A stretch of DNA of 34,726 nucleotides, from assembly GCA_023228245.1 (NCBI GenBank), contig JALOBN010000031.1:1-34726 (forward strand), read 5' to 3'. This DNA comes from Candidatus Pacearchaeota archaeon (lineage in GTDB: Archaea > Nanoarchaeota > Nanoarchaeia > Pacearchaeales > GW2011-AR1). The position numbers were made by a program, and so were the translations under genes. Below are positions 9,212-26,542 of this stretch, in pieces; position 1 is the first letter of the stretch; each line of letters begins with the position of its first letter. The notes under the pieces were generated by a model. That model was given only the letters and a program-made list of their open reading frames with translations. It was not told the origin of the DNA and ran no database searches.

Positions 9212-9625
9212 ATGGCAAATCAAAGAAACAGTCCGGCGAGTTTCGAAGCCGGCGAGGCCGTGGAGCAACATCGGCGTGTGCTGATCACCCCCTCGGGCAC
9301 CGTGAAGTACGCCGACTCGGGGGATTACGGGATCGGCGTGACCCAGCAGAAGGCGGCGAGCGGGGCCCCGGTGGCGGTGCGAGACTACATGCACGGGGGA
9401 TCCTGCCGGATGGAGGCGTCCTCGGCGATCACGCGGGGCCGCAAGGTCTACGCCTCGAACGACGGAAAGGTTGCGGCGACGGGGACGCTCATCATCGGAA
9501 CCGCGGTTCAGGAGGCCAGTGCGTCCGGCAGCATCCTCGAGGTCTGGCCGCATCCCGGCCTCGGCCTCCAGTCGAGCCTGTCCTCGAGCTCGTCCTCCAG
9601 CAGTTCCTCCAGCTCCGGCTCGTAA
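9212..9625 (+). CDS. capsid decoration protein with poly-Ser tail (DUF2190-like)
   Basis: This 137-residue protein resembles the DUF2190/gpD-type cement proteins that sit on the outside of the capsid: GEAVEQHRRVLITPSGTVKY, then a beta-rich core and a GTAVQEASASGSILEVWP end. The gene lies just before the major capsid gene, as in lambda. After the domain the last 17 codons (9572-9622) are almost all serine, written with TCC, TCG, AGC and AGT. The tail would project from the capsid surface. GGAG at 9201 serves the ATG at 9212. Confidence 0.82.
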   Translation: MANQRNSPASFEAGEAVEQHRRVLITPSGTVKYADSGDYGIGVTQQKAASGAPVAVRDYMHGGSCRMEASSAITRGRKVYASNDGKVAATGTLIIGTAVQEASASGSILEVWPHPGLGLQSSLSSSSSSSSSSSSGS

Positions 9626-9690
9626 TCGCCGGGTGAACCGATCATTGACAACGCATTCGGCCGGGCCAGCGGCGGTAAGGAGACAGACAG

Positions 9691-10647
9691 ATGATTACCT
9701 ACGGGACCTACGCTGTTCCCCGCGCCGATCTCGGCGAGGCCTTTCACGAATTCAACCCGGCGGGCATGACGTTCATTGCGGATGCCATTCTGCCGGCGTA
9801 TGGGGTGCCGAAGGAAGATGGCACAATCACGGTCATCACCCGGGAGAACATCCGGATTGACGACGACACCCGCGCCGATGGCGGCACGTTCAACCGGATC
9901 GACATGGAAGGGGAGGACCTGGCCTATGCCACACAGGACAAGGGCCTGGAGATTGCCATCACGGACCGCGAGCGACGCAAGTACGCGAAGGACTTCCAGG
10001 TTGATCTGGAAAAGACCGCGATCCTCAAGCTCCGCATGTTGCTGAAGCGAGAGCTTCGCGTCAAGAACCTGGTCTTCAATACGGCAACCTGGACGGGTTC
10101 GACGCTCTACACGGACAACTCGGGCTCGCCCTGGGACAACATCGCCACGGACATCATCGGCCAGATCGTCGCTGCGAAGGAGAAGGTCCGCCTGAACACA
10201 GGCGTGCGGGCGAACGCCCTGATCGTCGGGGAGTCGGCCGTTCAGAACATGATCAAGAACACAGCGATCAAGGCCCGTTTCCAGGGCACCACCACCATTA
10301 CGGTGGATATGATCCGCGCGGGGCTGGCCTCCCTCGTCGGCCTCCAGCAGCTGATTGTCGGGGACACGGTCTATAACTCGGCCGATGAGGGGCAGACCTT
10401 CAGCGGCTCCGAGATCTGGCCGGACGACTATGCCACGGTCGCGGTGGTCGCCTCCGGTCCGGGGATGCCGGTGACCACGCCGTGCGTGGGCCGCACGCTC
10501 CGGTGGACCGAGATGGCGGACGGTCTGCTGGTGCCCGAGATGTATCGGGAGCCGCAGACCAAAAGCGACATCCTCCAGGTGGAAGACTACGTCGACGAGA
10601 AGGTGTTCGATCCCTACTTCGCACACCTGATGAAGATCGACGCCTGA
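9691..10647 (+). CDS. major capsid protein (gpE-like, HK97 fold)
   Basis: This is the main shell subunit. It has 318 residues, close to lambda gpE (341). The N-terminal part has FIADAILPAYGV and a GTFNRIDME region, followed by a helical spine segment (KTAILKLRMLLKRELRVKN) and a beta-rich C-terminal domain ending VFDPYFAHLMKIDA. The ATG follows TAAGGAGACAGAC. It sits directly after the decoration gene, in the order decoration then capsid. Unlike its neighbour it has no serine tract, which suggests the tracts are confined to surface-displayed or tail proteins. Confidence 0.9.
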   Translation: MITYGTYAVPRADLGEAFHEFNPAGMTFIADAILPAYGVPKEDGTITVITRENIRIDDDTRADGGTFNRIDMEGEDLAYATQDKGLEIAITDRERRKYAKDFQVDLEKTAILKLRMLLKRELRVKNLVFNTATWTGSTLYTDNSGSPWDNIATDIIGQIVAAKEKVRLNTGVRANALIVGESAVQNMIKNTAIKARFQGTTTITVDMIRAGLASLVGLQQLIVGDTVYNSADEGQTFSGSEIWPDDYATVAVVASGPGMPVTTPCVGRTLRWTEMADGLLVPEMYREPQTKSDILQVEDYVDEKVFDPYFAHLMKIDA

Positions 10648-10674
10648 CGAAGGCTTTCGTGAAGGAGGTAGTCG

Positions 10675-10908
10675 ATGGCGGACAGGAATGATCTGGCCTG
10701 GCTGAACGAGCCGGTCGTGCGGATGGTCATCAAGGAGGTGTCTCGCGAGGTCACGCAGGAGGTGATCGCCGAGCACGTCAAGGCCTGTCCCCACGGCCGG
10801 CGGATCGCCAACCAGGTCGCCCTGCTCGTCGGGGTCGCCATCGGGTCGGGCACCGCCGGGGGCGGCATTGCCCTGGTGATTGCCAGGGCCGTCTCCGGCC
10901 TTCCGTAA
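10675..10908 (+). CDS. small membrane-associated head-region protein
   Basis: A 77-residue protein with an amphipathic N-terminal helix, a CPHGRR motif near residue 38 and one glycine-rich transmembrane segment (VALLVGVAIGSG to ALVIARAV). AAGGAGG precedes the ATG by six bases. It is tightly packed between the capsid gene and the head closure gene. I do not recognise the family. A second holin-like or ejection function is possible, but nothing in the sequence decides it. Confidence 0.6.
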   Translation: MADRNDLAWLNEPVVRMVIKEVSREVTQEVIAEHVKACPHGRRIANQVALLVGVAIGSGTAGGGIALVIARAVSGLP

Positions 10909-10917
10909 AGGGGCATC

Positions 10918-11256
10918 ATGACGGATTTCGCGACAGCGCTGGGTTTGGGGGCCGAGGCGGCGATGGCGTTCCTGGATACGGAATCCATCACGTACACGCC
11001 GCTGGCCGGCGCGGGGGTACCGAGAGACGCCCTCGTGGAGCGGCTGGGTCCGCAGAGGCTTTCGGGTCTCGGCAGTGTGCCCCTGGCCCGCGTGACGCTC
11101 CGGAACGATGCGGCGGCCGGTCGCCCGGCGTCGGGGATCGATACGGGCGGCGACACGATCACGTGGTCGCCCAAGCGGGGCGGCGCGACGCGGGTCTCCC
11201 GGGTCCTGGAGATCGAGTGGCAAAATGGCGGGTTCGTGGGGCTTTTGATTGGGTGA
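10918..11256 (+). CDS. head-tail connector / head closure protein
   Basis: A 112-residue beta-rich protein with an ITYTP segment near residue 23 and a C-terminal WSPKRGGATRVSRVLEIEW hairpin, the style of small gpFII-like or head-closure proteins that join the portal to the tail. It starts nine bases after the previous stop and comes before a gpZ-like protein, the usual location for such connectors. The exact family is not certain. Confidence 0.6.
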   Translation: MTDFATALGLGAEAAMAFLDTESITYTPLAGAGVPRDALVERLGPQRLSGLGSVPLARVTLRNDAAAGRPASGIDTGGDTITWSPKRGGATRVSRVLEIEWQNGGFVGLLIG

Positions 11257-11261
11257 CGTCG

Positions 11262-11924
11262 ATGGAAGGTCCGTTGATCCAGGTTCGCTACGACAGGCAG
11301 GCGGTGGAAGCCATAGAGAAATCGCTTGCGGCCATCCCCAACGCCCTGCGGCGGATAGCCCCCTCCGCCCTGAATCGCACGACGAGTTGGACCCGTGTGC
11401 GGGTGAAGAGGCAGCTCGCCGCCGAACTCGCCTGGAAACAGGCAAAGGCCAACGCCTTGATGGTGATTGACAGGGCGACGGCGACGAAACTAAACAGCCA
11501 GCTCCAGGTAGCCAACCGCGTGATCCCTGTGGGCCAGTTTGCGTCCCAGGCCGCCGGCGGTGTGACGGCGATCTTCCCCTCGGGGCAATCGCGGAGCTAT
11601 CTGCACGCGTTCATGGCGACGATGCCCGGCGGTCATACCGGGGGGTTTTTGCGGTACCGCTGGGCCAAGCGGGGCAGCTACGAGAAGAATGGTCTGGGTC
11701 GAATTCGGCGGGAATGGCGAACCAGTCCGACGACGGGCCGGCGGTACAAGACGGAGCTTCCGATCTATGAAGTTCGCGAGCGGGCCCACGTCGTTCTGGA
11801 CCTTGAATTTCTCAAGCCCCTGGCCGCCCAGGGCCTGGCCCGGCTCGACGTCGAGCTCGCGGATCGGATCAAGGCCCTGGTTCTGGGCAAAATGAAATCA
11901 CGGCGCGGCCGGCAGGCCGCATAG
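11262..11924 (+). CDS. minor tail protein Z-like
   Basis: A 220-residue basic protein resembling lambda gpZ, which is needed to connect head and tail in working form. Seen here: an AVEAIEKSLAAIPNALRR start, an ALNRTTSWTRVRVKR motif and a LPIYEVRERAHVVLDLEF end, all typical of the family. The chosen ATG is at 11262; a GTG at 11253 overlapping the upstream stop is an alternative. The ribosome site is weak, so coupling to the upstream gene is likely. Confidence 0.78.
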   Translation: MEGPLIQVRYDRQAVEAIEKSLAAIPNALRRIAPSALNRTTSWTRVRVKRQLAAELAWKQAKANALMVIDRATATKLNSQLQVANRVIPVGQFASQAAGGVTAIFPSGQSRSYLHAFMATMPGGHTGGFLRYRWAKRGSYEKNGLGRIRREWRTSPTTGRRYKTELPIYEVRERAHVVLDLEFLKPLAAQGLARLDVELADRIKALVLGKMKSRRGRQAA

Positions 11925-11936
11925 AAGGAGAAAACC

Positions 11937-12350
11937 ATGCTGGGCAAAGGAACCACGCTGACCGGGTCCGTGACGGGTCTGATCGGCCACATTCGCAACT
12001 GGAATTTCGCCGGACGGAGCGTCGCGGATCTCGACAACACGGACGCCGACACGACCGGGTACCATCGCACGTACGAGCCGGGCCTGATCGAGAGCGGTCA
12101 GTTCACGTGCGAGGTCCTCTACAACGCGACCTACGCCTACAAGGTGGAGAAAGCGCTGAAGAACCGCGTCACCGAGTGCTGGTGTGTGAAGTTTGCCGAC
12201 AACAACAAGCGGTATTTCTGGGGGTACCCGAACTCCTCCGAGCTGTCCGGTCCCTACGACAATCTCGCGAGCTTCAACTTCGGGATCAAGATCACGGGGG
12301 AGATCAAGAGTTCGTCGTCCTCGTCGAGCAGCTCCTCGAGTTCGTCGTAG
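11937..12350 (+). CDS. tail tube protein with poly-Ser C-terminus
   Basis: A 137-residue protein in the tail-tube slot, between the gpZ-like gene and the tail chaperone genes. It begins GKGTTLTGSVTGLIGHIRNW and has strands typical of compact gpV-like tube subunits, including FTCEVLYNATYAYK. The last 13 codons (12309-12347) are all serine in mixed codons. Because the tube is built from many stacked rings, each virion tail would carry many serine tails on its outer surface. AGAAGGAGAAAACC precedes the ATG. Confidence 0.8.
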   Translation: MLGKGTTLTGSVTGLIGHIRNWNFAGRSVADLDNTDADTTGYHRTYEPGLIESGQFTCEVLYNATYAYKVEKALKNRVTECWCVKFADNNKRYFWGYPNSSELSGPYDNLASFNFGIKITGEIKSSSSSSSSSSSSS

Positions 12351-12399
12351 CTGAAGGATTGCACCTGTGTTGAGGCGGTGACTTGAAAAGGAGAAACGA

Positions 12400-12762
12400 A
12401 TGTCGATTCTGACGAAGCAGCAGATCCTGGGTCAGAGCAAGAAACTCAGGCAAAAGACGATCCCCTTCCCCGAGCTGGGCGGCGAGATCCTCTTCCAGGA
12501 GATGAGCTATGCGGATTGGGACGCCTTCGACAAGAAGGCCCCCCTCTACGCCCTGAGGCTCTTCGCCGCCTCGGCGGTGGACGAGAAGGGCGTGCGGCTC
12601 TTCAGCGAGGAGGACGCCAATCAGCTCGCCGCGCGGGGTTCCCACCTGATCGAGCGGGGCGCCCGCGCGGTCCTGGAGCTCAACGGACTCCTGGAGGAGT
12701 CGCCGGGGGCCATCCTAAAAAACTCGCCGAAGATCCCGACGCCGCCCGCGACTGGCGAATAG
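12400..12762 (+). CDS. tail assembly chaperone gpG-like
   Basis: A 120-residue protein in the gpG position between the tail tube and tape measure genes. It contains ELGGEILFQEMSYADWDAFD and a helical second half. Family members coat the tape measure protein during tail assembly and are absent from the virion. An A AAA AAC slippery heptamer in the zero frame near its end allows a longer fusion product. AAAGGAGAAACGA precedes the ATG. Confidence 0.75.
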   Translation: MSILTKQQILGQSKKLRQKTIPFPELGGEILFQEMSYADWDAFDKKAPLYALRLFAASAVDEKGVRLFSEEDANQLAARGSHLIERGARAVLELNGLLEESPGAILKNSPKIPTPPATGE

Positions 12763-13046
12763 CAGCGCACCTGGGCTACGGATCGCGGGACGAGATGCTC
12801 GCGGCGACGGCCGCCAGGGACGTGGTGACCTGGCGGCTGTTGGATCGGCTCGGCGAGTTTGGGGAGCGTCGCCGGGACCGGAGGATCGCGAAGATGACGA
12901 TGCACATCGTGGCCTGCCTCAGGACGGCGAAGTCCGGACCGGTGCAGTTTCGGGAGTTCCTCCTGCCGGCGATCGACGACCGCGAGGAGCCGCCGTCGGA
13001 CGCTGACGAGGTCGAACGGTTCGACAGGGCGGCGGGGCTGAAATGA
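12400..13046 (+). CDS. gpGT-like chaperone made by -1 frameshift
   Basis: The frame opened at 12400 can shift back by one base at 12717-12723 and then runs to 13046, adding about 107 residues (beginning LAEDPDAARDWRIAAHLG). The fusion is about 215 residues. The extension has the look of lambda gpT domains (GYGSRDEMLAATAARDVVTW and a long basic helix). It has no start codon of its own with a ribosome site near the junction. Production of both short and frameshifted forms is known for lambda-like tail chaperones; the frameshift here is inferred from the perfect slippery site and frame geometry. Confidence 0.75.
12717..12723 (+). promoter_or_regulatory. programmed -1 frameshift slippery site
   Basis: A AAA AAC is placed exactly as X XXY YYZ in the zero frame (CTA AAA AAC). 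It is the only obvious slip point in the overlap between the two frames. A slip here joins the two tail chaperone frames. Confidence 0.72.
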
Positions 13047-13055
13047 AAGGAAGAT

Positions 13056-13137: not shown

Positions 13138-13155
13138 GCATATTCCTGGTGGTTT

Positions 13156-15553: not shown

Positions 15554-15648
15554 GCCACAGAGGGCACAGAGGACGCAGAGATGAGACATAAGGATAGAGT
15601 ATATCCCTTTGTTCTTCCGTCTCTGTGCTCTCTGTGTCCCTCTGTGGC
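15554..15648. repeat. inverted nonamer array after the tape measure gene
   Basis: GCCACAGAGGG and two more CACAGAG-type units at the left are mirrored by CTCTGTG-type units ending CCCTCTGTGGC at the right, with about 45 bases between. The transcript can form a hairpin between the tape measure gene and the next tail gene. Confidence 0.75.
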
Positions 15649-15675
15649 CCAACGCATTTTTGTCTGGAGGGCGCC

Positions 15676-16182
15676 ATGAGTTCCTCGATCTCCTCCTCCT
15701 TCTCCTCCTCCAGCAGTTCGTCGTCCTTCTCGGCGGATCAGACGGTCCTGGAGCGGATCAGCGACTGGCTCCGGGTGCAGGTCGCCTCGGCCGTCACGGT
15801 CTACCGCGCCAAGCGGGTGCACTGGTCCGATCCGCTCACGGCGGATGCCTCGGCCGTCGTGGTCCAGGGCGAGGGGCGGGTGTTGTATGAGGGATCGGGC
15901 GATGTGGTGATGGAGCAGGCGTTCGAGATCGCCGTGGCGGCGATTGGGTCCGACTCCGAGACGGATTCCTCCGAGACGAGGGCGGGTCTCTTGATGTCGC
16001 GGATCGTCGAGGCCCTGGGCAGCGACGACGCCTGCGGGGGCAATGCGATGTACGGAGGCCTCGCCGTGGGGACGGTGTCGCCGATCGCTGACGAGGCCGG
16101 TCACGTCACGGGCAAGAGCCTGGATCTGGCGGTGACCTATTCCCATCGGGCGAGTGACCCGACGGTTATCGGGGTGCGGTGA
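15676..16182 (+). CDS. tail terminator-like protein with N-terminal poly-Ser
   Basis: A 168-residue protein. Residues 2-19 are serine with Ile and Phe interruptions. The folded part begins ERISDWLRVQVAS and ends DLAVTYSHRASDP, an alpha-beta pattern that resembles gpU-like tail terminator or completion proteins. In lambda gpU lies earlier in the map, so the position here after the tape measure is unusual and weakens the assignment. GGAGGGCGCC precedes the ATG. This is the only one of the six serine-tract proteins in which the tract is N-terminal. Confidence 0.5.
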   Translation: MSSSISSSFSSSSSSSSFSADQTVLERISDWLRVQVASAVTVYRAKRVHWSDPLTADASAVVVQGEGRVLYEGSGDVVMEQAFEIAVAAIGSDSETDSSETRAGLLMSRIVEALGSDDACGGNAMYGGLAVGTVSPIADEAGHVTGKSLDLAVTYSHRASDPTVIGVR

Positions 16183-16183
16183 C

Positions 16184-17212
16184 ATGTCCTTCGTGATACG
16201 AGACAGCTACTGGGATTGGTCGGAGACCAACTTCTACATCCTCGCAGGCAGCGCCGAGCGAAGATCCCAGAGCTTCATCGCTTCGGGCGACTATCCCCTC
16301 GGAATCGTCGAGCTGAGAATGGTTGCAGCCTACAGCGACCAGTTGAATGGGAACGTGGTTGTGGAAATCCACACGAGCTACGGCAATAAGCCCTCAGGCA
16401 CCGTGCTGGCCTCGTGTTCTCGATCCCTTCAATCCATCTACGACGAAGAAGAACCGGTGATTCATGCATTCCCCTTCTCCCCTGCGGTCGCTGTGGAGGA
16501 CGGGGAACAATATCACGTCGTCGTGTACAGCACCGGGGACACGGTGTTCTTCTACTACCGCGTGGGTGCGAGTAACACGCTCTACGCCGACGGGGCGATG
16601 TGTACGTCCTCGGATGGCGGCGTATCCTGGACAGAGCTGGGGGCGAGTCAGGACGCCCCGTTCCGGGCCTGGGAATCCTCCTCCAGTTCCAGCAGCTCTT
16701 CCTCGTCGTCGTCCTCCTCCTCTTCCACGTCCTCGTCGCCCTCCTCTTCCTCCTCCTCTTCTTCCACGTCCTCCTCTTCCGATTCCTCCTCGAGCAGCTT
16801 CGTGCCGCTGGTCTGGCCGGCTTTGTCGAAGGGAGTGGACCTGGTCGTGAGGGAGGAGCCGATGGATTCGGAGATCTCGATGCCGCTCGGCTGCGGGCGG
16901 AACAAGGTCCGGCCGCGGTTCACGCGGGGCCGCCGGCGGTGGAAGGTGACGATTTCCCTCATGACCCTGGCGGACCGCCTCGCGATGGAGCGGTTCTACC
17001 TGGTGTATTGTGAGCTGTCGAAATACGCCTTCGAGTTCGTGGATGCCAAGGTAGGCCAGACCTGGCTGGCCCGCTGGGACCCCGAGACGCCGGCGGTGTT
17101 CCGGTCGGACTCCCGGATCAAGGGCAGGCATTTCTTCGAGGCAACCATGATCGAAAACACGGCGGGGAGCTACGGCGCCGGCGGATATGGAGCGGAGTAC
17201 TACGATGGGTGA
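16184..17212 (+). CDS. tail-tip protein: jelly-roll-like domain, poly-Ser linker, gpM-like domain
   Basis: This 342-residue protein has three parts. Residues 1-164 are a beta-sandwich-like domain (SQSFIASGDYPLGIVELRMV and EDGEQYHVVVYST), the style of surface-exposed carbohydrate-binding or choice-of-anchor domains. Residues 165-205 are serine with Thr, Pro and Asp breaks (16676-16798). The last 137 residues begin VPLVWPALSKG and look like a minor tail protein of the lambda gpM region. The next gene has a homologous C-terminal domain but a different N-terminal one. The lectin-like part may be a tethered receptor-binding or display module. It starts two bases after the upstream stop. Confidence 0.68.
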   Translation: MSFVIRDSYWDWSETNFYILAGSAERRSQSFIASGDYPLGIVELRMVAAYSDQLNGNVVVEIHTSYGNKPSGTVLASCSRSLQSIYDEEEPVIHAFPFSPAVAVEDGEQYHVVVYSTGDTVFFYYRVGASNTLYADGAMCTSSDGGVSWTELGASQDAPFRAWESSSSSSSSSSSSSSSSSTSSSPSSSSSSSSTSSSSDSSSSSFVPLVWPALSKGVDLVVREEPMDSEISMPLGCGRNKVRPRFTRGRRRWKVTISLMTLADRLAMERFYLVYCELSKYAFEFVDAKVGQTWLARWDPETPAVFRSDSRIKGRHFFEATMIENTAGSYGAGGYGAEYYDG

Positions 17213-17235
17213 CTCAGCACAGAGGGCTCTGGTTC

Positions 17236-19149
17236 ATGGCCTATAACCCGGCATCCGATCCGAATTGTCAGGCCTGGTGGCGCTTGGAGGACGGCGCCCT
17301 GGAGACCGACTCCAGCGGCAAGGGCAATACGCTCACGAATGACGGGGTGGTCTCCTCATCGACTCACAAGGAGGGGTCCTACAGCGGCGACTTCGAAGTG
17401 ACCGAGACGGACTTTCTGCTCCGTACGGACGCGAACCTGTCGGCGAACTTCCCGCTCAAGAGCGGTGACACGACCAAGGACATCACGCTATGCTTCTGGT
17501 GTCGTTTCGAAAGTCTCGTCTCGACCTACGCCGTGAGCAAGTTCGATCTGAGCCTCAACAAAGCAAGCTTCGGCGTCGTCGTCACGAACGCCGGGAAAAT
17601 CGGGCACAACATCGGCACAGGCACCGGCTCCACGTATGAAGTGAACTGGGGCACGCCGACGCTCACGACCGGCCGCTGGTATCACGTCGCGGCCACGTAC
17701 CTCGGATCGACGCGGGCCTGGAAACTCCGCGTCTGGGATGATACGTCGAGCTCGGTAGTCGGCAACGACAGCGGGACCAAGACGGGCACGCTTGCGGTGA
17801 CGACGGCGTCGTGGGTCATCGGCGCAGCGCAGGAAGGGGCGTCGTCCCATTTCGACGGTCTGATCGACGACGTGGTAGTCTTCAATCGCGTGCTGACAAA
17901 CGACGAGATCGACGAGATCCGCGGGCAGACATTCAGCTCCTCCTCCTCGTCGTCGGAATCGTCGTCCTCGTCAAGCGAGTCCAGTTCCAGCAGCAGCAGT
18001 TCCTCGTCCTCGGAATCGTCAAGCAGCAGTTCGTCGTCCTCGAGCGAGTCCAGCTCCAGCAGCAGTTCGTCGTCCTCGAGCGAGTCCAGCTCCAGCAGCA
18101 GCTCGTCTTCGTCCCAATCGTCCAGCAGCAGCTCCTCGTCTTCGAGCGAGTCCAGCTCGAGCAGCAGCTCGTCCTCGTCCGAGTCATCGAGCAGCAGTTC
18201 GTCGTCGTCGAGCGAGTCCAGCTCGAGCAGCAGCTCGTCTTCCTCCCAGTCGTCGAGCAGCAGTTCCTCGTCATCGAGCGAGTCCAGCTCGAGCAGCAGT
18301 TCGTCCTCGTCCCAATCGTCCAGCAGCAGCTCCTCGTCATCGAGCGAGTCCAGCTCGAGCAGCAGTTCGTCCTCGTCCCAATCGTCCAGCAGCAGCTCCT
18401 CGTCCTCGAGCCAGTCCAGTTCCAGCAGCAGCTCGTCATCATCCCAATCATCGAGCAGCAGCTCCTCGTCCTCGAGCCAGTCCAGTTCCAGCGGCAGCTC
18501 GTCTTCGTCCCAATCGTCCAGCAGCAGCTCCTCGTCCTCGAGCCAGTCCAGTTCCAGCGGCAGCTCGTCTTCGTCCCAATCATCGAGCAGCAGTTCCTCC
18601 TCATCGTCGGAGTCGTCCTCCCTTTCCAGCTCCTCCGAATCGAGTTCTTCGATGAGCAGCAGCTCTACGTCGTCCTCTTCTTCGAGCACGAGCTCCTCCT
18701 CTTCCTCAATCTCCTCATCTTATTCCTTCTCCTCGAGCTCGAGCAGCTCGGTTGCCCCGCTGGCCTGGCCGGCGCTGTCGAAGGGGTTCGAGCTGGAGGT
18801 GGGGGAGCTGGTCGACGACGCCGGCCAGGACGCCTCGGACTCGGGGGCGGGCGTCGTGAATGTCGCTTCCCGGTATCTGCGGCCGGTTCACCGGCTGAAG
18901 ATCAGCTACCGCCTTCTGCCGCGGGCGGACCGTGTGACCCTGGAGCGATGGATCATCGAGCAGGCCTGCGGAGGCGTCAAATGCTTCGAGGTCACGGACC
19001 CGACGACGGCCTGGCTCTGGCGATGCCGATTCGATCCGGCGGGGACTCGGAAGTGGTCCACGAACGCCGACCACCCGGACAAACACGATTTCTCGGCGGA
19101 CCTGATCGAGGACCCCGAGGACAAGTATCTTCCGGAGATCTACGCATGA
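17236..19149 (+). CDS. tail-tip protein: LamG-like lectin domain, 272-residue poly-Ser region, gpM-like domain
   Basis: This 637-residue protein has residues 1-233 forming a concanavalin A/LamG-type jelly roll (CQAWWRLEDGALETDSSGKG, ITLCFWCRFESL, GRWYHVAATY, FDGLIDDVVVFNRVLTNDEI). Then comes a serine region of 272 codons (17935-18750) in which Glu or Gln occurs about every 11th residue. The last 133 residues begin VAPLAWPALSKG and are paralogous to the end of the preceding protein. The lectin domain is presumably held far from the tail tip on a flexible or glycosylated stalk. I chose ATG 17236 after AGAGGG; a GTG at 17209 overlapping the upstream stop is possible. Confidence 0.75.
   Translation: MAYNPASDPNCQAWWRLEDGALETDSSGKGNTLTNDGVVSSSTHKEGSYSGDFEVTETDFLLRTDANLSANFPLKSGDTTKDITLCFWCRFESLVSTYAVSKFDLSLNKASFGVVVTNAGKIGHNIGTGTGSTYEVNWGTPTLTTGRWYHVAATYLGSTRAWKLRVWDDTSSSVVGNDSGTKTGTLAVTTASWVIGAAQEGASSHFDGLIDDVVVFNRVLTNDEIDEIRGQTFSSSSSSSESSSSSSESSSSSSSSSSSESSSSSSSSSSESSSSSSSSSSSESSSSSSSSSSQSSSSSSSSSSESSSSSSSSSSESSSSSSSSSSESSSSSSSSSSQSSSSSSSSSSESSSSSSSSSSQSSSSSSSSSSESSSSSSSSSSQSSSSSSSSSSQSSSSSSSSSSQSSSSSSSSSSQSSSSGSSSSSQSSSSSSSSSSQSSSSGSSSSSQSSSSSSSSSSESSSLSSSSESSSSMSSSSTSSSSSSTSSSSSSISSSYSFSSSSSSSVAPLAWPALSKGFELEVGELVDDAGQDASDSGAGVVNVASRYLRPVHRLKISYRLLPRADRVTLERWIIEQACGGVKCFEVTDPTTAWLWRCRFDPAGTRKWSTNADHPDKHDFSADLIEDPEDKYLPEIYA
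17935..18750 (+). repeat. coding repeat: Ser10-Glu/Gln units
   Basis: A stretch of 272 codons, nearly all serine, with an 11-residue unit of ten serines and one Glu or Gln (33 bases). Neighbouring units often pair into 66-base repeats. Ser codons mix TCC, TCG, TCA, TCT, AGC and AGT. Glu units dominate on the left and Gln units on the right; two Gly replacements appear near 18490 and 18556. The last part breaks into Ser with Thr, Met, Ile, Tyr and Phe. Confidence 0.95.
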
Positions 19150-19204: not shown

Positions 19205-19819
19205 ATGAAAACGATTCCAGGTCTCCAACTGGCCGAGTCCGCGAAGCTCCAGAGCCCGTACATCTGGGTGGAACTGCTCGACTTCGCCCTGCCCTACGGC
19301 CGCCACTGGCGAATCGCCAACAACACAGAGCCCGTCACCTATCAGGGGAACGTCTACGAGGCCGCCAGTTTCACACCCGAGGTGATCGCCCTGAATAAGG
19401 ACGCCGCCATGCCGGTCTTCTCGCTGACGCTGGCGGGGCTGGGGGGTCAGCTCGATCAGTGGCTCAATCGCGCCGGCGGCCTGGAGGGCTGCACGCTCAC
19501 GGTCGCCGTCGTCAACACGATGGCCCTGGGGGCGGACTGGTCCGACTACACGACGGTCTACGATATCCGGGGCCACGGGGAGTCGGACGACAGTGTCGAG
19601 TTCACGATCGGCGGGCCCAACTGCTATCGGTTCGCGTTCCCGTTTCGGCGGTACATGCCGACGCTCTGCGAGGTCCGATTCAAGGGCCCGCACTGCGGGT
19701 ATGCAGGCGTGGAGTCCTCCTGCCAATACACGCTCGCCGATTGCCGCAGGCTGGGGAACGCGGCTCGGTTCGGCGCCTCGCCCGGTGTGAGGGCCAATAC
19801 GCTCAAGGTGGTGTCATGA
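19205..19819 (+). CDS. minor tail protein L-like, Fe-S
   Basis: Lambda gpL is a tail-tip assembly protein known to hold an iron-sulfur cluster. This 204-residue protein has the family end: Cys155, Cys164, Cys173 and Cys180 in CEVRFKGPHCGY and SSCQYTLADC, plus FGASPGV. Earlier parts (ESAKLQSPYIWVELLDFAL, TPEVIALNKDAAMPVFSLTL) also fit. GGGGAGA serves the ATG. Its TGA overlaps the next ATG (ATGA), so translation is coupled to the fibre protein. The gene follows the tail-tip proteins in the lambda order M-L-(K-I)-J. Confidence 0.88.
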   Translation: MKTIPGLQLAESAKLQSPYIWVELLDFALPYGRHWRIANNTEPVTYQGNVYEAASFTPEVIALNKDAAMPVFSLTLAGLGGQLDQWLNRAGGLEGCTLTVAVVNTMALGADWSDYTTVYDIRGHGESDDSVEFTIGGPNCYRFAFPFRRYMPTLCEVRFKGPHCGYAGVESSCQYTLADCRRLGNAARFGASPGVRANTLKVVS

Positions 19820-22200
19820 GTCAGCAAGGCAGACAGTTCGGGTTGTATGTGGGAATGCTGGCCCTGGCGGTGGCGGCGCCCTGGGCCGGCGGCGCACTCC
19901 TCGGCCTCCAGGGGCTGGCCCTGGCCGTCTTCGCCGGCGTCGCGACGATGGGCGGCGGCATGATCTTGTCGCGGGCCCTGGCGAGCAGCCAGCCGTCGGA
20001 CGACGACAGTGGGGCCAGGGACGTCTACTCCTGGCATCCGACTACCCGGCAGCAGGCGTCGGGCGTGATCCCGAAGCATTACGGCCGCAACCGTCTTCAC
20101 GGCAACGTGGTCGCCTGCTATACGGAGGAGGTCTACGAGACATCCAAGCCGGGCAACTTCACGTTCTCCAACAAGCAACGTCTGAACGTCCTGATCGATC
20201 TGGGCGAGGGTCCCATCGAGGGCACCGTGGAGGCCGCCGCGATTGACAGTGTCCTGATCAATGGCCAGGCGGCGTCGGAGTTCCCGGACGTGGCGGTGGA
20301 ATTCCGACGTGGTTTGCTCAACCAGACCGCCTGCTCCAAGTTTGCGGCGGAGCTGAAGATTCAATACCCGGTCAACATACCGGTGACGTGGGACGACGGT
20401 GCGATCATATACACCACGCCGGACGCCGACTTCGACGACCTGGAGATCGTCCTGTCCTATCCGAACGGGATGTATCAGATCGATAAGGAAACGGGCGAGG
20501 TCAAGAACATCACGAGCCCGGCCCAGGCGGCGAAGATTGAGATCTCGCCGCACGGCGAGGCAGCGTGGGTGCAGCTGGTCAAGTATTGGACGTGGGGGGG
20601 GTATCTGGAGACCATCTACGCCACGTTCCGGGCCAGCACCCTGTATAGCTCGTGGTTCGGCACCGCGGTCACAATCCAGAGGGGCAAGCAGTACGACATC
20701 CGGGTGACCAAGATGTGTGCCGACTACGCGGAGGGTTATCAATACGGCAAGAACGACCTGGCCCTCTATGCGATCAGGGAGATACTCTCTGTGGGGTTCA
20801 CGTACCCCGGCCGGGCCCTCCTGCAGGTCTCGGCCCTGGCCACGGACAAGCTCAGCGGTTCGCTCGATGTCTCCGTCGAGGTCGACGGGGCCATCGTGAA
20901 TACGGACATGACGGGCGGAACGACCCTGGAGTACTCGAACAATCCCGCGCATGTGCTCGCTGACATGGTGACCATGCCCGTGATCGCGGGGGACGGCGAC
21001 GCCGTTCCCTACACCATTGTGGACACCATGGGCCCCGTCGCCCGCTCGGACCTGATCCTGCCCCTCTTCGCCGCCGAGGAGAGCACGGCGGATGCGCTCG
21101 TCGGCGACGGCGAGGGCGGCACGGAGAAGCGGCTGACGTTCGACGGGATCTTCGACGGGGAGAGCACCGTCGGCGACGCCTCGCAGGAGGTCCTGGCCGT
21201 CTCCCGGTGCCTGTGGAAGTGGGAGGGCCGCCGTCTGGGCCTGACGCTCGACATCGCCCGGTCGCCGGTGATGGTCCTGTCGGACGGCAATTGCCGTCGC
21301 GGCCGGCTGACGCAAAAGTTGATTCCGACGACGGAGCGGGCGACCGAGGTCGAGGTGCAGTACCGCGACAAAGCCCTCGACTACGCCAAGACGCCGATGC
21401 TCGTGCGGAATCCGCGGATGGCGGGCCGTCACCGCGTGACGCTCCAGCTCAACGGGGTGACGAAGCAGTCGCGGGCGGCTCGCCTGATGAATTTCGAGCT
21501 GCTTCGCAACGAGGTGGTCGTTCGCGAGCTCTCCCAGACGTCGCAGATCGATGCGGGGATTCTGGAGATCGGCGACGTGGTGTATTCCCAGCGTCCTCGC
21601 CGGTCCTGGGGCGGCCGGCTCGCCTGGGTCAGCGGCCGGCGGGTCCGGATCGATAGGAAGGTCCGCCGCTCCAAGGCGGACCGGATCATCGTCCAGGTGT
21701 ACGACGTGGCTACGGGTGGCTGGATCATCGAGAGTCACGCCTGCAAATGGGTCGAGGGCCGTCTCATCGAGATCAGGGACGACTGGTCCGACACGGCGCC
21801 GAAGGTGGGGGATGTGTACCTCTTCGGTCCGGACGACATTTCGACGGACACGTTCGAGGTGGTGGGCATCCGCCGGGCGGGCGACCACGAGTACACGTTG
21901 ACCCTGACGACCTACGCCGCGGTGCTCTATGCCGCAGACGACACGCCGCCGGTGATCGTGACGGACGTGGGGCTCTCGCCGGCCCGCAGTTCGTCGCTCA
22001 GCGTGATCGCCTCGCCGACCCGCGCCCAGATCGCCCAGATCAATCCGCTGAACGCCTGGTCGAGCAGCAGTTCCTCCTCTTCGTCTTCGTCGAGTTCGTC
22101 GAGCAGCAGTTCCAGCTCCTCGACCTCTTCGTCCAGCTCTTCCTCCTCGATCTCCTCCTCGTCGGTGTCGTCGTCGAGCAGTTCGAGTTCCGGAGCGTGA
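19816..22200 (+). CDS. central tail fibre / host specificity protein (gpI-gpJ-like) with poly-Ser tail
   Basis: This 794-residue protein has an N-terminal hydrophobic Gly/Ala-rich stretch (residues about 10-55) like gpI tail assembly proteins, followed by a gpJ-like body (GRNRLHGNVVACYTEE, LNVLIDLGEGPIEG, GDVVYSQRPRR). gpJ forms the tail tip and binds the host receptor in lambda. It is shorter than gpJ (1132 residues). After residue 748 the protein ends in 44 codons of serine with Thr, Ile and Val breaks (22060-22191), so the serine tail lies at the tail tip. No gpK homologue is visible between gpL and this gene. Confidence 0.82.
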   Translation: MSQQGRQFGLYVGMLALAVAAPWAGGALLGLQGLALAVFAGVATMGGGMILSRALASSQPSDDDSGARDVYSWHPTTRQQASGVIPKHYGRNRLHGNVVACYTEEVYETSKPGNFTFSNKQRLNVLIDLGEGPIEGTVEAAAIDSVLINGQAASEFPDVAVEFRRGLLNQTACSKFAAELKIQYPVNIPVTWDDGAIIYTTPDADFDDLEIVLSYPNGMYQIDKETGEVKNITSPAQAAKIEISPHGEAAWVQLVKYWTWGGYLETIYATFRASTLYSSWFGTAVTIQRGKQYDIRVTKMCADYAEGYQYGKNDLALYAIREILSVGFTYPGRALLQVSALATDKLSGSLDVSVEVDGAIVNTDMTGGTTLEYSNNPAHVLADMVTMPVIAGDGDAVPYTIVDTMGPVARSDLILPLFAAEESTADALVGDGEGGTEKRLTFDGIFDGESTVGDASQEVLAVSRCLWKWEGRRLGLTLDIARSPVMVLSDGNCRRGRLTQKLIPTTERATEVEVQYRDKALDYAKTPMLVRNPRMAGRHRVTLQLNGVTKQSRAARLMNFELLRNEVVVRELSQTSQIDAGILEIGDVVYSQRPRRSWGGRLAWVSGRRVRIDRKVRRSKADRIIVQVYDVATGGWIIESHACKWVEGRLIEIRDDWSDTAPKVGDVYLFGPDDISTDTFEVVGIRRAGDHEYTLTLTTYAAVLYAADDTPPVIVTDVGLSPARSSSLSVIASPTRAQIAQINPLNAWSSSSSSSSSSSSSSSSSSSSSTSSSSSSSSISSSSVSSSSSSSSGA

Positions 22201-22231: not shown

Positions 22232-22251
22232 AAACAGAAGGAGAAAGAATA

Positions 22252-22896
22252 GTGGACCCGCTTGTGCATGGCAAATCGCAAATCATCGATTATCAGGACA
22301 TCCTCGCCCGCGGCAACCGCCGCATGACGGAGCACGACCTGAAGCTGCTCGTAGGAACCTGCGAGGCGGTGCACGCCGAGACGGTGGTCGAGATCGGCAG
22401 CAAGGACGGCTGCTCCACGCTGGCCCTCGGCTCCTGGCTGGGCCCGCGGGGGGGCAGGCTCTTCTGCGTGGAGCCGGTCCCCACCGGCCGTTGGCAGCAG
22501 AACGTCCGGGAGTACGGCATCGAGGGCTGCATCATTGCCATCCGCGCGTTCAGTCCCTGGATTCCGCCGGACCAGGTTCCCTGCCCGATCGATGTGCTCT
22601 TGATCGATGGGGACCATCGGACCAGCCGCGCCGTCGCGGATTACATCTTCTGGGGCCGGTTCGTCCGCAAGGGGGGCAGAATCGCCTTCCACGACATCGA
22701 CGGCGGCAAGGGTGTCGCCGCGGACATCCGCAAGGCGGTCGAGATCTGTGAGCGGGACGACAATCTGAGCAGTCCCCAGGGTCCGGACTGGCTCATCAAG
22801 GAGGTGGCCCGCACGCCCCCGGCACACGATCGCGGCCTGATCGTCTTCGAGAAGGGCTCGCCCGCCTGGCCGCTGACCGAGGGGGGTGTCGCGTGA
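22252..22896 (+). CDS. class I SAM-dependent methyltransferase
   Basis: A 214-residue protein with the Rossmann SAM site VVEIGSKDGCS at about 44-54, and VLLIDGDHRTS plus GGRIAFHDIDGG further on, the pattern of Methyltransf_24 enzymes that often act on sugars or small molecules. The start is GTG 22252, after AAGGAGAAAGAATA. It opens a four-gene cassette of sugar-related enzymes and overlaps the radical SAM gene by four bases (GTGA). The substrate is not known. Methylation of a virion glycan is an attractive inference. Confidence 0.8.
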   Translation: MDPLVHGKSQIIDYQDILARGNRRMTEHDLKLLVGTCEAVHAETVVEIGSKDGCSTLALGSWLGPRGGRLFCVEPVPTGRWQQNVREYGIEGCIIAIRAFSPWIPPDQVPCPIDVLLIDGDHRTSRAVADYIFWGRFVRKGGRIAFHDIDGGKGVAADIRKAVEICERDDNLSSPQGPDWLIKEVARTPPAHDRGLIVFEKGSPAWPLTEGGVA

Positions 22897-23690
22897 GTCC
22901 CGTCCGTCCCCTCAGTCCCATCCTCTACGAGCGGACCAGACGGGTCCGCGACCGGACGGTCCGATGCTACCTGACGCTGGCCTGCACGAGGGCCTGTGGA
23001 TTTTGCAGTGCCGGCGTCCCGGGTGTGCCGGCCGTCCGCAAGGAGATCTGTCTGCCGGCCGGGGACTGGGCGGCGGGGATCAACGCCCGGCGTCGGGCGT
23101 GCATCCTGGCCGGCGGCGAGCCGCTGCTCTATCCGGGCCTGGCCGAGCTGCTCCGTCGGATCGACGGGTCGATCCCTATCGAGATCTACACGAACCTCGA
23201 GGGGGATGTCTCCCCGTTGCTGGCGGCCCCGGCCCGCTACAGGGTCCTGGCCTCCCTGCATAAGGACGTTGTGGATCTCGGCGATCCCTGGTTCGATTCG
23301 CTGGCCGCCGTGGTGCACGCCGGCCACAGCGTCCGCTGCCACGTCGTCAAGGCCGGCAACTGGCGTCACCGGGTGGACCTCTTGAATCAGGTCGGCGTCA
23401 AGACCACCTGCTGCGGCGATCAGCGGTCCGGGGTCAAGTCACGCGGTCGGATCGGGCGGGAAGTCCGGTGTGTGAACACGATCTACCTGTTCGGTCCGGA
23501 CGGTTTCCGCTATCCCTGCGTCACGCTGCTCGGCAGGGGCGAGCGGCCGATGGAGCACATCGCCGCGCCGGACGGCCCGGACGGCATCGAGATCCGATGT
23601 GATCTCTTCGGCTCCTGCGTGGGCTGTGACAACAATATCGAGGGGCGAGCCGAAGCGGTGGAAGTGGAATGTGGGATGGTTGATGGTTGA
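22893..23690 (+). CDS. radical SAM protein
   Basis: Radical SAM enzymes use a 4Fe-4S cluster and SAM for difficult C-H chemistry. In this 265-residue protein the cluster motif is Cys31, Cys35 and Cys38 (ACTRACGFC), followed by the GGEPLLYPG motif. Several Cys pairs near the C-terminus (KTTCCGDQ, YPCVTLL, GSCVGCDNN) suggest an auxiliary cluster as in SPASM-type proteins. It is shorter than most SPASM enzymes. The GTG start overlaps the upstream TGA. Its position among glycosyltransferases suggests modification of a sugar or a peptide, perhaps a serine-rich tract, but this is inference. Confidence 0.8.
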   Translation: MSPVRPLSPILYERTRRVRDRTVRCYLTLACTRACGFCSAGVPGVPAVRKEICLPAGDWAAGINARRRACILAGGEPLLYPGLAELLRRIDGSIPIEIYTNLEGDVSPLLAAPARYRVLASLHKDVVDLGDPWFDSLAAVVHAGHSVRCHVVKAGNWRHRVDLLNQVGVKTTCCGDQRSGVKSRGRIGREVRCVNTIYLFGPDGFRYPCVTLLGRGERPMEHIAAPDGPDGIEIRCDLFGSCVGCDNNIEGRAEAVEVECGMVDG

Positions 23691-23762
23691 TGGTGTATGG
23701 AGGCGGGCGGGGCCCGCAGGACAGGTGAAATCCGAAATCAAAAATCAAAAATCAACAATCCT
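23675..23762. repeat. two heptamer arrays at the radical SAM / GT9 junction
   Basis: GATGGTT-type units (three and a half copies, 23675-23700) are followed by AAATCAA-type units (five, 23728-23762). The first contains the radical SAM stop codon and the candidate GT9 start. The second is translated as part of the GT9 N-terminus. Confidence 0.7.
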
Positions 23763-24450
23763 CCCGGCCTGGTTCGGCGAGTTCGGCTGGGAGGTGATGA
23801 GCTGGTCCCCGTGGTGTCGCGCCCGGGCGAGGGAATGCGGCGGTGCCATCATTACCAGTTTCGGTGCCAGCCGGGCGTTGTACGAGGATTTCGCCACGCG
23901 GTTCCGCGACCATGGGGGCCGAGACCGGTCGCTGGAATATCCGAAGGACATGAGGATGTACCGATCGGACGGGCCTGGTTTCGAGCATCGGCGGTTCGGG
24001 AACCCGGACAACGCCGAGCCGTTCGACGTCCTGATCCACGCCCGGGGGATCGCACGCAAGGCCTCGATCAACTATCGCGCTTGGGATCTTCTCTGTGGTC
24101 TCTGTGCCCTCTGTGGCTACAAGGTGGCGTCCATCGGCACGCGGGTCGATGGGCACATCCCCGGCACGAGGGATCTGCGGCAGATTGCCCTGGACCGGCT
24201 GATGGACGTCATGGCCGCGGCCGGCGTCTGCGTCGGCTGCTCCAGCGGCGTGATGCACCTGGCGGCGGCCTGCGGATGCGACCTGGTGGTCTGGGGCGAC
24301 ACGAAGACCCGCTACGGCCAGACGCTCGAGCGGCGGTATAAGGAGACCTGGAATCCCCAGCATGTGGCGGTCGAGTGGCTCGATGCAGACGACTGGCAGC
24401 CGGCGGCTGCCAGGATCATGCAGGCCATCGAGAAGAGATTGAACGAGTGA
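23683..24450 (+). CDS. GT9-like glycosyltransferase with in-frame repeat
   Basis: A protein of about 255 residues whose second half has the GT9 (heptosyltransferase family) C-terminal pattern: GTRVDGHIPGTRDLRQIALD, then CSSGVMHLAAACGCDLVVWGD. The N-terminal half (WFGEFGWEVMSWSPWCR) is like a shortened GT-B donor/acceptor domain. Two oddities: residues about 16-27 come from AAATCAA heptamers, and residues 136-145 (LLCGLCALCG) come from a CTCTGTGnn nonamer array. The start is uncertain: ATG 23683 overlapping the upstream stop, or GTG 23725 after AGGA. It is likely to transfer sugar, perhaps in partnership with the next gene. Confidence 0.65.
   Translation: MVDGVWRRAGPAGQVKSEIKNQKSTILPAWFGEFGWEVMSWSPWCRARARECGGAIITSFGASRALYEDFATRFRDHGGRDRSLEYPKDMRMYRSDGPGFEHRRFGNPDNAEPFDVLIHARGIARKASINYRAWDLLCGLCALCGYKVASIGTRVDGHIPGTRDLRQIALDRLMDVMAAAGVCVGCSSGVMHLAAACGCDLVVWGDTKTRYGQTLERRYKETWNPQHVAVEWLDADDWQPAAARIMQAIEKRLNE
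24091..24117. repeat. nonamer array inside the GT9 gene
   Basis: Three CTCTGTGnn units read in frame as Leu-Cys-Gly, Leu-Cys-Ala, Leu-Cys-Gly. Nine bases equal three codons, so the array keeps the frame open. It is the only array in the window lying in the middle of a protein. Confidence 0.75.
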
Positions 24451-24452
24451 AA

Positions 24453-24514
24453 CCACGAAGGGCACGAAGAAATAAGTGCTCTTCCTTCGTGTCACTTCGT
24501 GGTCTTCGTGGTGG
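24453..24514. repeat. inverted nonamer array, CACGAAGnn variant
   Basis: CCACGAAGGGCACGAAGA on the left faces TTCGTGTCACTTCGTGG-type units on the right. A transcript hairpin would form between the two glycosyltransferase genes. The sequence is a variant of the CACAGAG arrays. Confidence 0.7.
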
Positions 24515-24535
24515 AAAAGAAATGGAGAAACGGCA

Positions 24536-26542
24536 ATGCACTATTTTGACACGATCGACGTGACAGGACCGCTGCGCGTCCTGCTCCGCAACACGCAGGC
24601 GCTCCTCGGGGATCGAATGGCCTTTACGCCACTGGTCCGAGACCTCAAGCACACCTATCCCCGATGGCAGATCTTCGTGGTCGCCGGCGACGCTGCGGTC
24701 TGGGCGAACAATCCGCACATCGCCGGCCTGGTCCTTCCGGGCGATCCGGAGCCGGACAAGATCGACCTTGCGGTAGACGTCGGCCCCTATCGCGCCACCC
24801 AGGGCAGCAAGAACAATGGCGTCCACTTCATGCGGGCCTTTGAGTACGGCTTTACCCGGGTCACCGGGTTGCCCGTTGCGACGGGGCCCTGCAAGGCGGA
24901 CCTGCACCTCTCGGAGGAGGAGCTGGCATACCGCCCCGTCGCGGGTTGCTACTGGGTCTTAAACGCGGACACGAACAATATGGGCGCGAAGCGTTGGCCT
25001 GTCGATCGCTGGCGGGCCCTGATCCGGTCGATGCCCCAGATCCGGTTCGTCCAGGTGGGCCGGTCGGAGCATTGTCTCGCGGATCTCGGCGATGAGCCGA
25101 ACGTCACGAGCTTAGTGGGTCGCACGGACGTCCGGCAGCTCTTCGCCCTGGCCTCGCACGCCCAGGGCTGTGTGTCTCTGGTCTCCAGTCTGATGCACGT
25201 CGCCGCGGCCTTCGACAAACCCTGTGTCGTTTTGGCCGGCGGCCGGGAGCCCCACACGTTCGAGCAGTACCCGTCTCACTACTACATCAGCCGCGTCGGC
25301 ATGCTCCCCTGCGCGAAGGACTTGGCATGCTGGAAGAATTCGATCACGGCCTGCAAGGACCAGGTCCAGACGCCGGCGGGTCCCGTCGCCCGGTGCATGA
25401 CGACGATCTCCGTCGCGGACGTCCGCCGGGGGATCGAGCTGTACTACGAGGGCGGCCGGTTGGCCGAGGGGGGGAAGAGGGACTTTATTGACCGAATTGA
25501 CCCCATTGCCAACGAGGTCAACAGGGTCAATCCGGTCCCATTTTCCTCGTCCCCGCCGCTCCTACGCATCGTCACGAACGGAAAGTGCTTCGGCGGCGCG
25601 GAGCGGTCCTGCGCCCGGATCGCCGGGATGTTCCGCGAGCGGAACTGGCAGGTCGAGATCGCGACGCGGCAGCCGATGTGCCCCGAGATGGCGGCGGCGT
25701 TCGACGCCGTGGCCGTCCGCACAGACAGGATTTCTGGGCCCTGCGACTGCCTGCTGTGGTACGCGAGCGACCAGGTGTATGACGCTCACTTGGCGGAGTT
25801 TGAGCCCCTGGCGAAGGCGGCAGGGGCCGCCAAACGCAAAGTAATGGCGATCACCTACAAACTGGGAAAAGTCCCGGACCTGCCCTGGTGCCGGGACTGG
25901 GACTCATACCTCTTCCTGTCCTCGGTGATGGCTGGGGCCTTCGTGGCCCATGCCACGTGCCCCGTGACCCGAACTGCGGTCCTCGCTCCCCCGGTCGACC
26001 TCGCCCCGTTCCTGGCCCTCCAGCCGACTTATGACGCCCCGATCCGCGTGGTCCGGCACAGCTCGCAGGGCGACAACAAGTGGCCGCCCTTGACGGGCCC
26101 GCTGGTGGAGAGCTGCCCAAACGCCCGCTTCGATTTCATGCCCGCGCCCTCCTGGCTGCCGGATCTGCCGAACTTGACCCGCCGGCCTCACGGTGAGATG
26201 GAGGTTCCGACCTTTCTCGCCTGCGGCAACCTGTTCCTCTACCTGCTGCCCGAGGGCTACACGGACCAGGGGCCCCGCGTTGTGGTGGAGGCGATGGCGG
26301 CGGGCCTGCCGGTCGTCTGCGGGCGGCGGGATGGCTGCGCCGATCGTGTCACGGAAGACACGGGCTGGTTCGTATCAGGCCACCAGGAGACGGTCGAACT
26401 GATCCGGACCGTCACGCCGGCCCTCCTGGCGGTCAAAGGCCGTGCGGCCCGCGAGCGGGCCAGGACGGAGTTCGACCCGTGGAACTGGTACACAGCGATC
26501 AGTGGTGAAAATCATCCATCATCCATCATCGATCATCAATGA
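24536..26542 (+). CDS. bifunctional GT9-GT4 glycosyltransferase
   Basis: This 668-residue fusion has residues 1-300 forming a GT9 (ADP-heptose:LPS heptosyltransferase-type) unit: LLRNTQALLGDRMAFTPLV, then RWPVDRWRALIRSMPQIRF and CVSLVSSLMHVAAAFDKPCV. Residues about 340-668 form a GT4-type unit: VTNGKCFGGAERSCARI, then EGYTDQGPRVVVEAMAAGLP and CADRVTEDTGWFVSG. The two domains may add successive sugars. The C-terminal residues PSSIIDHQ come from the ATCATCC heptamers at 26511-26538. GGAGAA serves the ATG. Its pairing with the HldE-C-like gene at 1267 suggests that heptose is a donor, though GT9 members vary. Confidence 0.85.
   Translation: MHYFDTIDVTGPLRVLLRNTQALLGDRMAFTPLVRDLKHTYPRWQIFVVAGDAAVWANNPHIAGLVLPGDPEPDKIDLAVDVGPYRATQGSKNNGVHFMRAFEYGFTRVTGLPVATGPCKADLHLSEEELAYRPVAGCYWVLNADTNNMGAKRWPVDRWRALIRSMPQIRFVQVGRSEHCLADLGDEPNVTSLVGRTDVRQLFALASHAQGCVSLVSSLMHVAAAFDKPCVVLAGGREPHTFEQYPSHYYISRVGMLPCAKDLACWKNSITACKDQVQTPAGPVARCMTTISVADVRRGIELYYEGGRLAEGGKRDFIDRIDPIANEVNRVNPVPFSSSPPLLRIVTNGKCFGGAERSCARIAGMFRERNWQVEIATRQPMCPEMAAAFDAVAVRTDRISGPCDCLLWYASDQVYDAHLAEFEPLAKAAGAAKRKVMAITYKLGKVPDLPWCRDWDSYLFLSSVMAGAFVAHATCPVTRTAVLAPPVDLAPFLALQPTYDAPIRVVRHSSQGDNKWPPLTGPLVESCPNARFDFMPAPSWLPDLPNLTRRPHGEMEVPTFLACGNLFLYLLPEGYTDQGPRVVVEAMAAGLPVVCGRRDGCADRVTEDTGWFVSGHQETVELIRTVTPALLAVKGRAARERARTEFDPWNWYTAISGENHPSSIIDHQ
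26511..26538. repeat. heptamer array at the end of the GT9-GT4 gene
   Basis: Four ATCATCC-type units that encode the last residues of the glycosyltransferase. Confidence 0.7.

Follow-up and report, generated by a model that had tools for sequence, protein, structure and literature searches.

What purpose might be served by long runs of serine (Ser) on the virion proteins of a phage, and by glycosyltransferase (GT) genes placed directly behind its fibre gene? This question is raised by the 34,726-nucleotide contig JALOBN010000031.1 (hereafter the window, meaning the whole stretch analysed), a tailed-phage contig of GC content 0.63 with a long lambda-like tail module, whose genes include TerS, TerL, portal, protease, cement protein, neck, tube, tape measure and gpL-/J-like genes. 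The Ser tracts are linked to GT genes by neighbourhood and by joint presence and absence, and the linkage is seen in unrelated phages as well. As judged from gene content and arrangement, the best reading of the locus, and one that we consider probable, is phage-encoded O-glycosylation of the Ser tails of the virion.

According to this reading, Ser homopolymers on the exposed ends and linkers of virion proteins would serve as flexible acceptor tails, on which the phage's own cassette behind the fibre gene (a GT9-like enzyme, a GT9-GT4 fusion and a methyltransferase) would build O-glycans in the infected cell. In many relatives, a sugar-nucleotide short-chain dehydrogenase/reductase (SDR) and a GT-A-like open reading frame (ORF) would join the cassette. 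The glycans would be short and possibly methylated, and the result would be a mucin-like virion coat. Ser is the presumed acceptor, the choice of the GT that starts the chain is likewise presumptive, and the methyltransferase would act on the sugar; the benefit of the coat would presumably be shielding, adhesion or stability.

Poly-serine tracts of the virion proteins

The first-pass annotation of the window had reported poly-Ser tracts in six virion genes, and all six are indeed in frame and in the genes named, each on the forward strand. The decoration (cement) protein (9212..9625; PF09956, 39.5 bits when queried from 9215) carries a run of 12 Ser (nt 9581-9616) that stops 2 aa short of its C-terminal end, and the final 13 residues of the tail tube protein (11937..12350; phrog_158 major tail protein, E 3.3e-8) are all Ser. 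A tail-terminator-like protein (15625..16182), without PHROG or Pfam match and aligned by BLAST with ORFs that in relatives lie between the neck and tube genes, has an N-terminal run of 8 Ser (nt 15703-15726), its likelier start being the ATG at 15676. The next two genes carry their tracts as linkers: 41 residues (nt 16676-16798) in a tail-tip protein with a weak phrog_384 match (16154..17212), and 272 residues (nt 17935-18750), in which runs of about ten Ser are broken by E or Q, in a LamG-domain protein (17209..19149; PF13385, E 1.4e-19) that is Ser at 272 of its 646 positions. Finally, the central tail fibre J (19816..22200; phrog_31, E 4.7e-87) bears a C-terminal tract of 44 residues (nt 22060-22191), again 2 aa short of the end. 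The reported absence of tracts from the major capsid protein (MCP), portal, tape measure and terminase also held, since no Ser run of at least 4 occurs in any of these in the window, nor in the protease.

Single-sequence scans of IMG/VR with the window J and the window GT9-GT4 fusion gave no relative, and alignments were therefore used as queries. MCP scans returned 17 IMG/VR contigs and one contig, G008:C92, of a metagenome-assembled genome (MAG) of a Phycisphaerae bacterium; of the 54 loci returned by a TerL scan, the search for the fusion covered 30 records, the other 24 being short fragments. Among deposited phages, neither the fusion nor the small GT nor the tail tube had a match, while three records match the window MCP at 23-28% and 735 match the window TerL at under 60%. 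An ORF with at least 10 consecutive Ser is present in all 17 IMG/VR relatives found by MCP, in the MAG contig, in 10/10 contigs found through the GT9-GT4 fusion (3 of them shared with the MCP set) and in 3/7 contigs with only a distant GT9. The corresponding background was 0/80 among random IMG/VR loci drawn by an arbitrary 16-mer (742 kb, median GC 63%), where the one run of 8 lay in a 53-aa ORF.

The position of the tracts was counted over 28 chosen relative contigs of the poly-Ser type (four poly-Ser-negative TerL relatives being excluded), with ORFs assigned by BLAST and a Ser run of at least 6 required. Such a run is found in 39/40 decoration ORFs, the sole miss being G437, and in 24/25 tube ORFs, the miss being cut by the contig end. 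None was found in MCP (0/28), portal (0/18), protease (0/19), TerL (0/16), TerS (0/14), neck (0/19), tape measure (0/14) or gpL (0/14). The earlier proposal that the tracts mark surface-exposed proteins agrees with the decoration and tube tracts, which recur, and with the absence from capsid, portal, terminase and tape measure; the tracts of J (3/16 relative ORFs) and the terminator-like protein (0/11) are not general. Restriction of the tracts to presumed surface proteins, namely decoration, tube and tail-tip/fibre, is in this way supported indirectly. Similar proportions come from the loci found by TerL, where the Ser tail is on 23/29 decoration proteins and 13/14 tubes; two of the decoration misses (L265, L293) and the tube miss (L250) are cut by contig ends. 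Among further homologs, that of the 16154-17212 tail-tip protein in G437 has a run of 7 Ser, the LamG protein has a poly-Ser relative in G016, the one database homolog of the decoration core ends in 8 Ser, and 5/5 homologs from the tube search have Ser tails, but here the query itself contained the tail.

The codons of the tracts bear on their origin. All six Ser codons are used, as had been claimed, when the window tracts are pooled, but TCA is absent from 5/6 tracts taken singly. The pooled codon shares are close to those of Ser elsewhere in the genome. Within every window tract, the frequency with which a codon is followed by itself stays within about 1.4 standard deviations of that in shuffled tracts. 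Over 11 genomes, namely the window and ten relatives with a GC of 33-63%, same-codon adjacency is below expectation in 7, equal to it in 1 and slightly above it in 3 (the window, G012 and G016), with no codon exceeding 37% of the tract Ser. A slipping DNA repeat would yield a single codon repeatedly, and the mixed codons rule out that the tracts arose by microsatellite slippage, although the linker of 17209-19149 did grow partly by tandem duplication (a 66-bp unit, 8.4 copies, 91% match). Since the Ser codons are mixed and not clustered, the residue itself appears to be selected, which lends indirect support to the earlier claim that amino acid identity is under selection. A general host habit of making Ser tracts was also considered and rejected, no run of at least 8 being present in 254 kb of the other MAG contigs (part of about 3.5 Mb).

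A glycosyltransferase cassette linked to the tracts

The content of 22252-26542, and of a gene at 1267 discussed below, proved to be as first described. From J to the fusion, the window genes share a strand, and consecutive genes either overlap slightly or are separated by 52 or 26 bp. Behind J follow a methyltransferase (22252..22896; Methyltransf_24, PF13578, 55.3 bits, cut-off 26.3), which has homologs in the relatives' cassettes; a putative accessory radical SAM protein (22893..23690; PF04055, 26.6 bits, just below the cut-off of 29.5); a small GT9-like glycosyltransferase (23683..24450; PF01075, 23.4 bits, barely above the cut-off of 22); and the GT9-GT4 fusion (24476..26542; PF01075, 53.9 bits, cut-off 22; PF13692, 33.7 bits, cut-off 27), which is 45-69% identical to most aligned homologs. 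Common to the relatives are Methyltransf_24, the small GT9-like enzyme and the fusion, save that in the MAG contig the place of the small GT9, which was not recognised there, is taken by a 178-aa ORF weakly matching a glycosyltransferase model. The radical SAM gene has a homolog in one relative only (G014 cassette, 53% identical), and stands in the window where relatives have two other genes: eight contigs add an SDR resembling sugar-nucleotide epimerases/dehydratases and an ORF with an LDxD-type motif, which no family model matches and which we read, by eye, as GT-A-like. In 8/10 of the contigs found by the GT search, a poly-Ser ORF starts at most 1.7 kb behind the fusion, and the other two end within 0.6 kb of it; the window has no poly-Ser ORF behind its fusion.

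Tracts and cassette go together within the family. The fusion is carried by every poly-Ser relative that was found through MCP or TerL and has a contig reaching the cassette, eight in all (G003, G005, G007, G008:C92, G010, G011, G014 and G437), that of G005 being partial and cut by the contig end. G002 and G452 end at the Methyltransf_24 gene, and the remaining poly-Ser contigs end earlier. Conversely, the TerL relatives G440, G441, G443 and G454, which have no Ser run of at least 7 and extend at least 7 kb beyond J, yielded none of the families searched for (fusion, GT9, Methyltransf_24, GT2 and GT4). Nine contigs with both, the window included, against four with neither correspond to 1 in 715 label shuffles, a figure to be taken as a guide only, given the shared ancestry of the contigs and the other capsid genes of the negatives. 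Related phages that keep the Ser tracts while lacking GT genes, which would have spoken against glycosylation, were accordingly not seen among these eight. The survey of relatives proposed earlier, for Ser tracts together with GT9 and HldE-C genes, gave a divided answer, with the fusion in 8/8 and HldE-C in none.

The linkage is also seen where phage genes are otherwise different. In contig G016, the LamG protein is the only match to the packaging and virion queries, and the cassette is nevertheless present, with poly-Ser proteins of 949 and 869 aa behind it. Methyltransferase-GT9 fusions occur in three viral contigs with poly-Ser ORFs (L053, L056, L057), the genes adjoining each other in L056 and L057. 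A Ser-codon pattern search that was blind to GTs gave 20 loci, 4 with runs of at least 10 and 14 with short runs or none; L063/G028, with several runs of 6-7 and two weak matches to GT2, and L066, whose 50-aa ORF holds a run of 8, were left uncounted. Of the 4 with runs of at least 10, all of them unrelated poly-Ser phages (G030, G034, G036, G038), none has GT9 and three have other GT types beside the poly-Ser gene. In G036, GT4 and GT2 genes end where the poly-Ser ORF starts, and in G034 a GT25-type gene (29.1 bits, cut-off 24), in an ORF chosen by eye for the scan, lies about 1 kb downstream of the poly-Ser ORF. In G030, an 813-aa GT2/GT4 protein is flanked by two poly-Ser ORFs. This last region (55386-64797; L224, L318-L321) belongs to a phage record of 94 kb for which the searches showed no relationship, and its flanking ORFs have 357 and 265 Ser in runs. 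We lean, by a little, towards regarding the Ser homopolymer as a portable glycosylation tag, such that unrelated phages would each have paired virion poly-Ser with a multi-GT cassette of a different family and mucin-like coats would have arisen repeatedly.

Enzyme type and donor sugar

A narrower version of virion glycosylation, in which the sugar is specifically derived from ADP-heptose, is unlikely in our estimation, although several features point towards it. The model of the fusion is confident (predicted local distance difference test score, pLDDT, 88). Foldseek with the whole fusion puts the two-domain capsule enzyme 8qoy in the first row (rmsd 26); among matches confined to one half, chains of the Ser O-heptosyltransferase TibC come first. 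For the GT9 half alone, TibC leads (E 2.7e-11), but WaaF (1e-9), 3tov and WaaC (about 1e-8) follow closely, and differences this small mean that the ranking says little. In a second structure alignment, TibC was not among the 50 rows listed, which were mostly filled by the GT4 half. The small GT9-like enzyme (pLDDT 86) gives the order WaaF (3.1e-6), 3tov (7.3e-6) and TibC (1.7e-5).

At the level of residues, the catalytic-type Asp is kept in all 28 fusion sequences that have sequence there (31 aligned), and the Lys and Trp of the KRW motif as well as four Cys are kept in 31/31. The Asp of the N-D-S-G motif of lipopolysaccharide (LPS) heptosyltransferases (1psw, 3tov), however, is V, I or L in 31/31. 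Nor do the family models agree. For bacterial autotransporter heptosyltransferases (BAHT; TIGR04414, cut-off 200 bits) the G008:C92 copy scores 22.7 bits and the window copy is not listed at E 0.001, while LPS heptosyltransferase II (TIGR02195) gives 33.4 bits against a cut-off of 134.6. The BAHT N-terminal beta-barrel (TibC residues 1-97) is missing, the first strand of the Rossmann half beginning at model residue 19, and the four C-lobe Cys are spaced 5-7-13 in the fusions versus 2-15-11 in the BAHT iron finger. The anticipated likeness to TibC extends to the modelled fold of the GT9 half, which TibC and WaaF have in common with it, and not to the family cut-off or the beta-barrel. The modelled fusion enzyme may act like a protein O-heptosyltransferase without being a BAHT. 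Cellular GT9 proteins of Planctomycetota (L200-L205), from 5 genomes besides G008 among 392 with at most 3 candidates scored per genome, lie near the phage GT9 half (about 185 bits) and keep the Cys-rich C-lobe, the N-D-S-G Asp being gone in them too. The GT9-GT4 fusion was seen in the same 392 genomes only in the phage contig.

The gene at 1267..2394 (forward strand) encodes an HldE-C-like nucleotidyltransferase fused to an NT5C-like phosphatase (PF06941, 28.7 bits). Its HldE-C part scores 159 bits with TIGR02199, below the cut-off of 181.5 and far above the other nucleotidyltransferase models listed. None of the relative contigs yielded an HldE-C domain; of the fused protein, G447 contains just the nucleotidase (phosphatase) half, standing alone in an ORF without NCBIfam match. 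HldE-C was on these grounds rejected as a conserved part of the system, and a link of the 1267 gene to glycosylation is doubtful. The claim that the phage lineage synthesises its own activated heptose is not supported, with HldE-C in no relative, the window copy below cut-off and radical SAM in one relative only. The heptose epimerase model, moreover, gives the SDR of the relatives a lower score than do the models for dTDP-glucose dehydratase and GalE.

The host may still be relevant here. The composition of G008:C92 matches that of its bin (GC 0.476 versus 0.478; tetranucleotide correlation 0.90, the bin's own pieces ranging over 0.85-0.97), and Planctomycetota are therefore a plausible host group for this relative. 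The MAG contains, in a row, genes that best match hldE, gmhA, gmhB and waaF, several of them below curated cut-offs. ADP-heptose may accordingly be at hand there without a phage HldE-C, which does not imply a role as donor. GT9 membership does not by itself fix heptose as the sugar, and ADP-heptose is best regarded as one donor option among several.

Competing explanations and known systems

Somewhat less probable again is the explanation that the Ser tails stay unmodified, acting as hydrophilic bristles or spacers, and that the cassette alters the surface of the host, for seroconversion or superinfection exclusion, or else some other target. Poly-Ser linkers occur in bacterial polysaccharide-processing enzymes and carry no claim of glycosylation in the portion of PMC6821194 consulted, phage GTs that change host serotype are mentioned in PMC12619734, LPS is the setting from which GT9 enzymes are mostly known, and an LPS-type heptose operon is present in the MAG. 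Against this explanation, tails and cassette are jointly present or absent, poly-Ser ORFs adjoin GTs in most contigs, and unrelated phages have different GT families beside poly-Ser.

Several observations do weigh against glycosylation of the tails. The contigs share ancestry and the four negative relatives have other capsid genes, so that the joint absence could reflect module exchange. Four of the seven contigs with a distant GT9 show no poly-Ser in the stretch examined. In phage G038, which has a Ser/Gly tract, no match to GT2, GT4 or GT9 was seen, these being the only families scanned in its other ORFs, and its contig ends 285 bp behind the ORF with the tract. Contig G437 has the cassette, yet its decoration C-terminus differs from Ser, while its tube has a Ser tail. 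The decoration proteins of L249 (the G437 record), L272, L283 and L292 (ORFs of 285-405 aa, in loci mostly too short for the cassette test) likewise carry other large C-terminal extensions. Their non-Ser extensions suggest a display position on the capsid, and the exchange of one decoration C-terminal extension for another fits a C-terminus that would face outwards.

That the GTs decorate phage DNA instead of protein is very improbable: DNA glucosylation is a known phage GT role (mentioned in PMC12619734) and the window has a Dam-like DNA methyltransferase (32273-33157), but the cassette sits with tail and poly-Ser genes in all contigs with a readable neighbourhood, and no DNA glycosyltransferase is among the best 50 Foldseek rows.

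Elsewhere in the window, two adjoining small proteins (31006-31308 and 31657-32181) have a common stretch, VYGLDLGSNRFTVDGAFDYETSQVAAS, after a hydrophobic N-terminus, as if a gene had been duplicated.

Coating of the Ser tails by the phage's own GTs, as proposed at first, is thus favoured by the linkage of those genes to the tracts, while the heptose part of the proposal is weak. If virion glycosylation is confirmed, sugar-coated phages would be predictable in metagenomes from a simple signature, a Ser homopolymer on a virion protein with GT genes beside it. For protein O-glycosylation, the system would supply compact enzymes together with a minimal acceptor, and the mechanism and purpose of virion glycosylation could be studied in a second phage system besides that of the mycobacteriophages.

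Among the closest known systems are the serine-rich repeat adhesins with enzymes of the GtfA/GtfB or SdgA/SdgB type. For phages, poly-Ser virion tails are not described in the titles and abstracts of the open-licence PMC literature searched. Nearest are mycobacteriophage virions, in which glycans are reported at the C-termini of capsid and tail tube subunits (Freeman et al. 2023, as cited in PMC12619734), and Rhodococcus phages, in which phage-encoded GT and methyltransferase genes have been taken as a sign of virion glycosylation (PMC13313380). Like phages with glycosylated virions, the phages described here have GT genes near virion genes. In contrast to the mycobacteriophages, the acceptor candidate is a Ser homopolymer, located on the decoration and not the capsid protein and accompanied by a GT9-GT4 fusion, and at least one relative probably has a host among the Planctomycetota. 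On the side of the enzyme, TibC acts on protein Ser (PMC4358343). The fusion resembles TibC/AAH in its GT9-type GT-B catalytic domain, its catalytic Asp and Lys and its four C-lobe Cys; it departs from them in having no N-terminal beta-barrel, another Cys spacing, an added GT4 half and a score far below the family cut-off.

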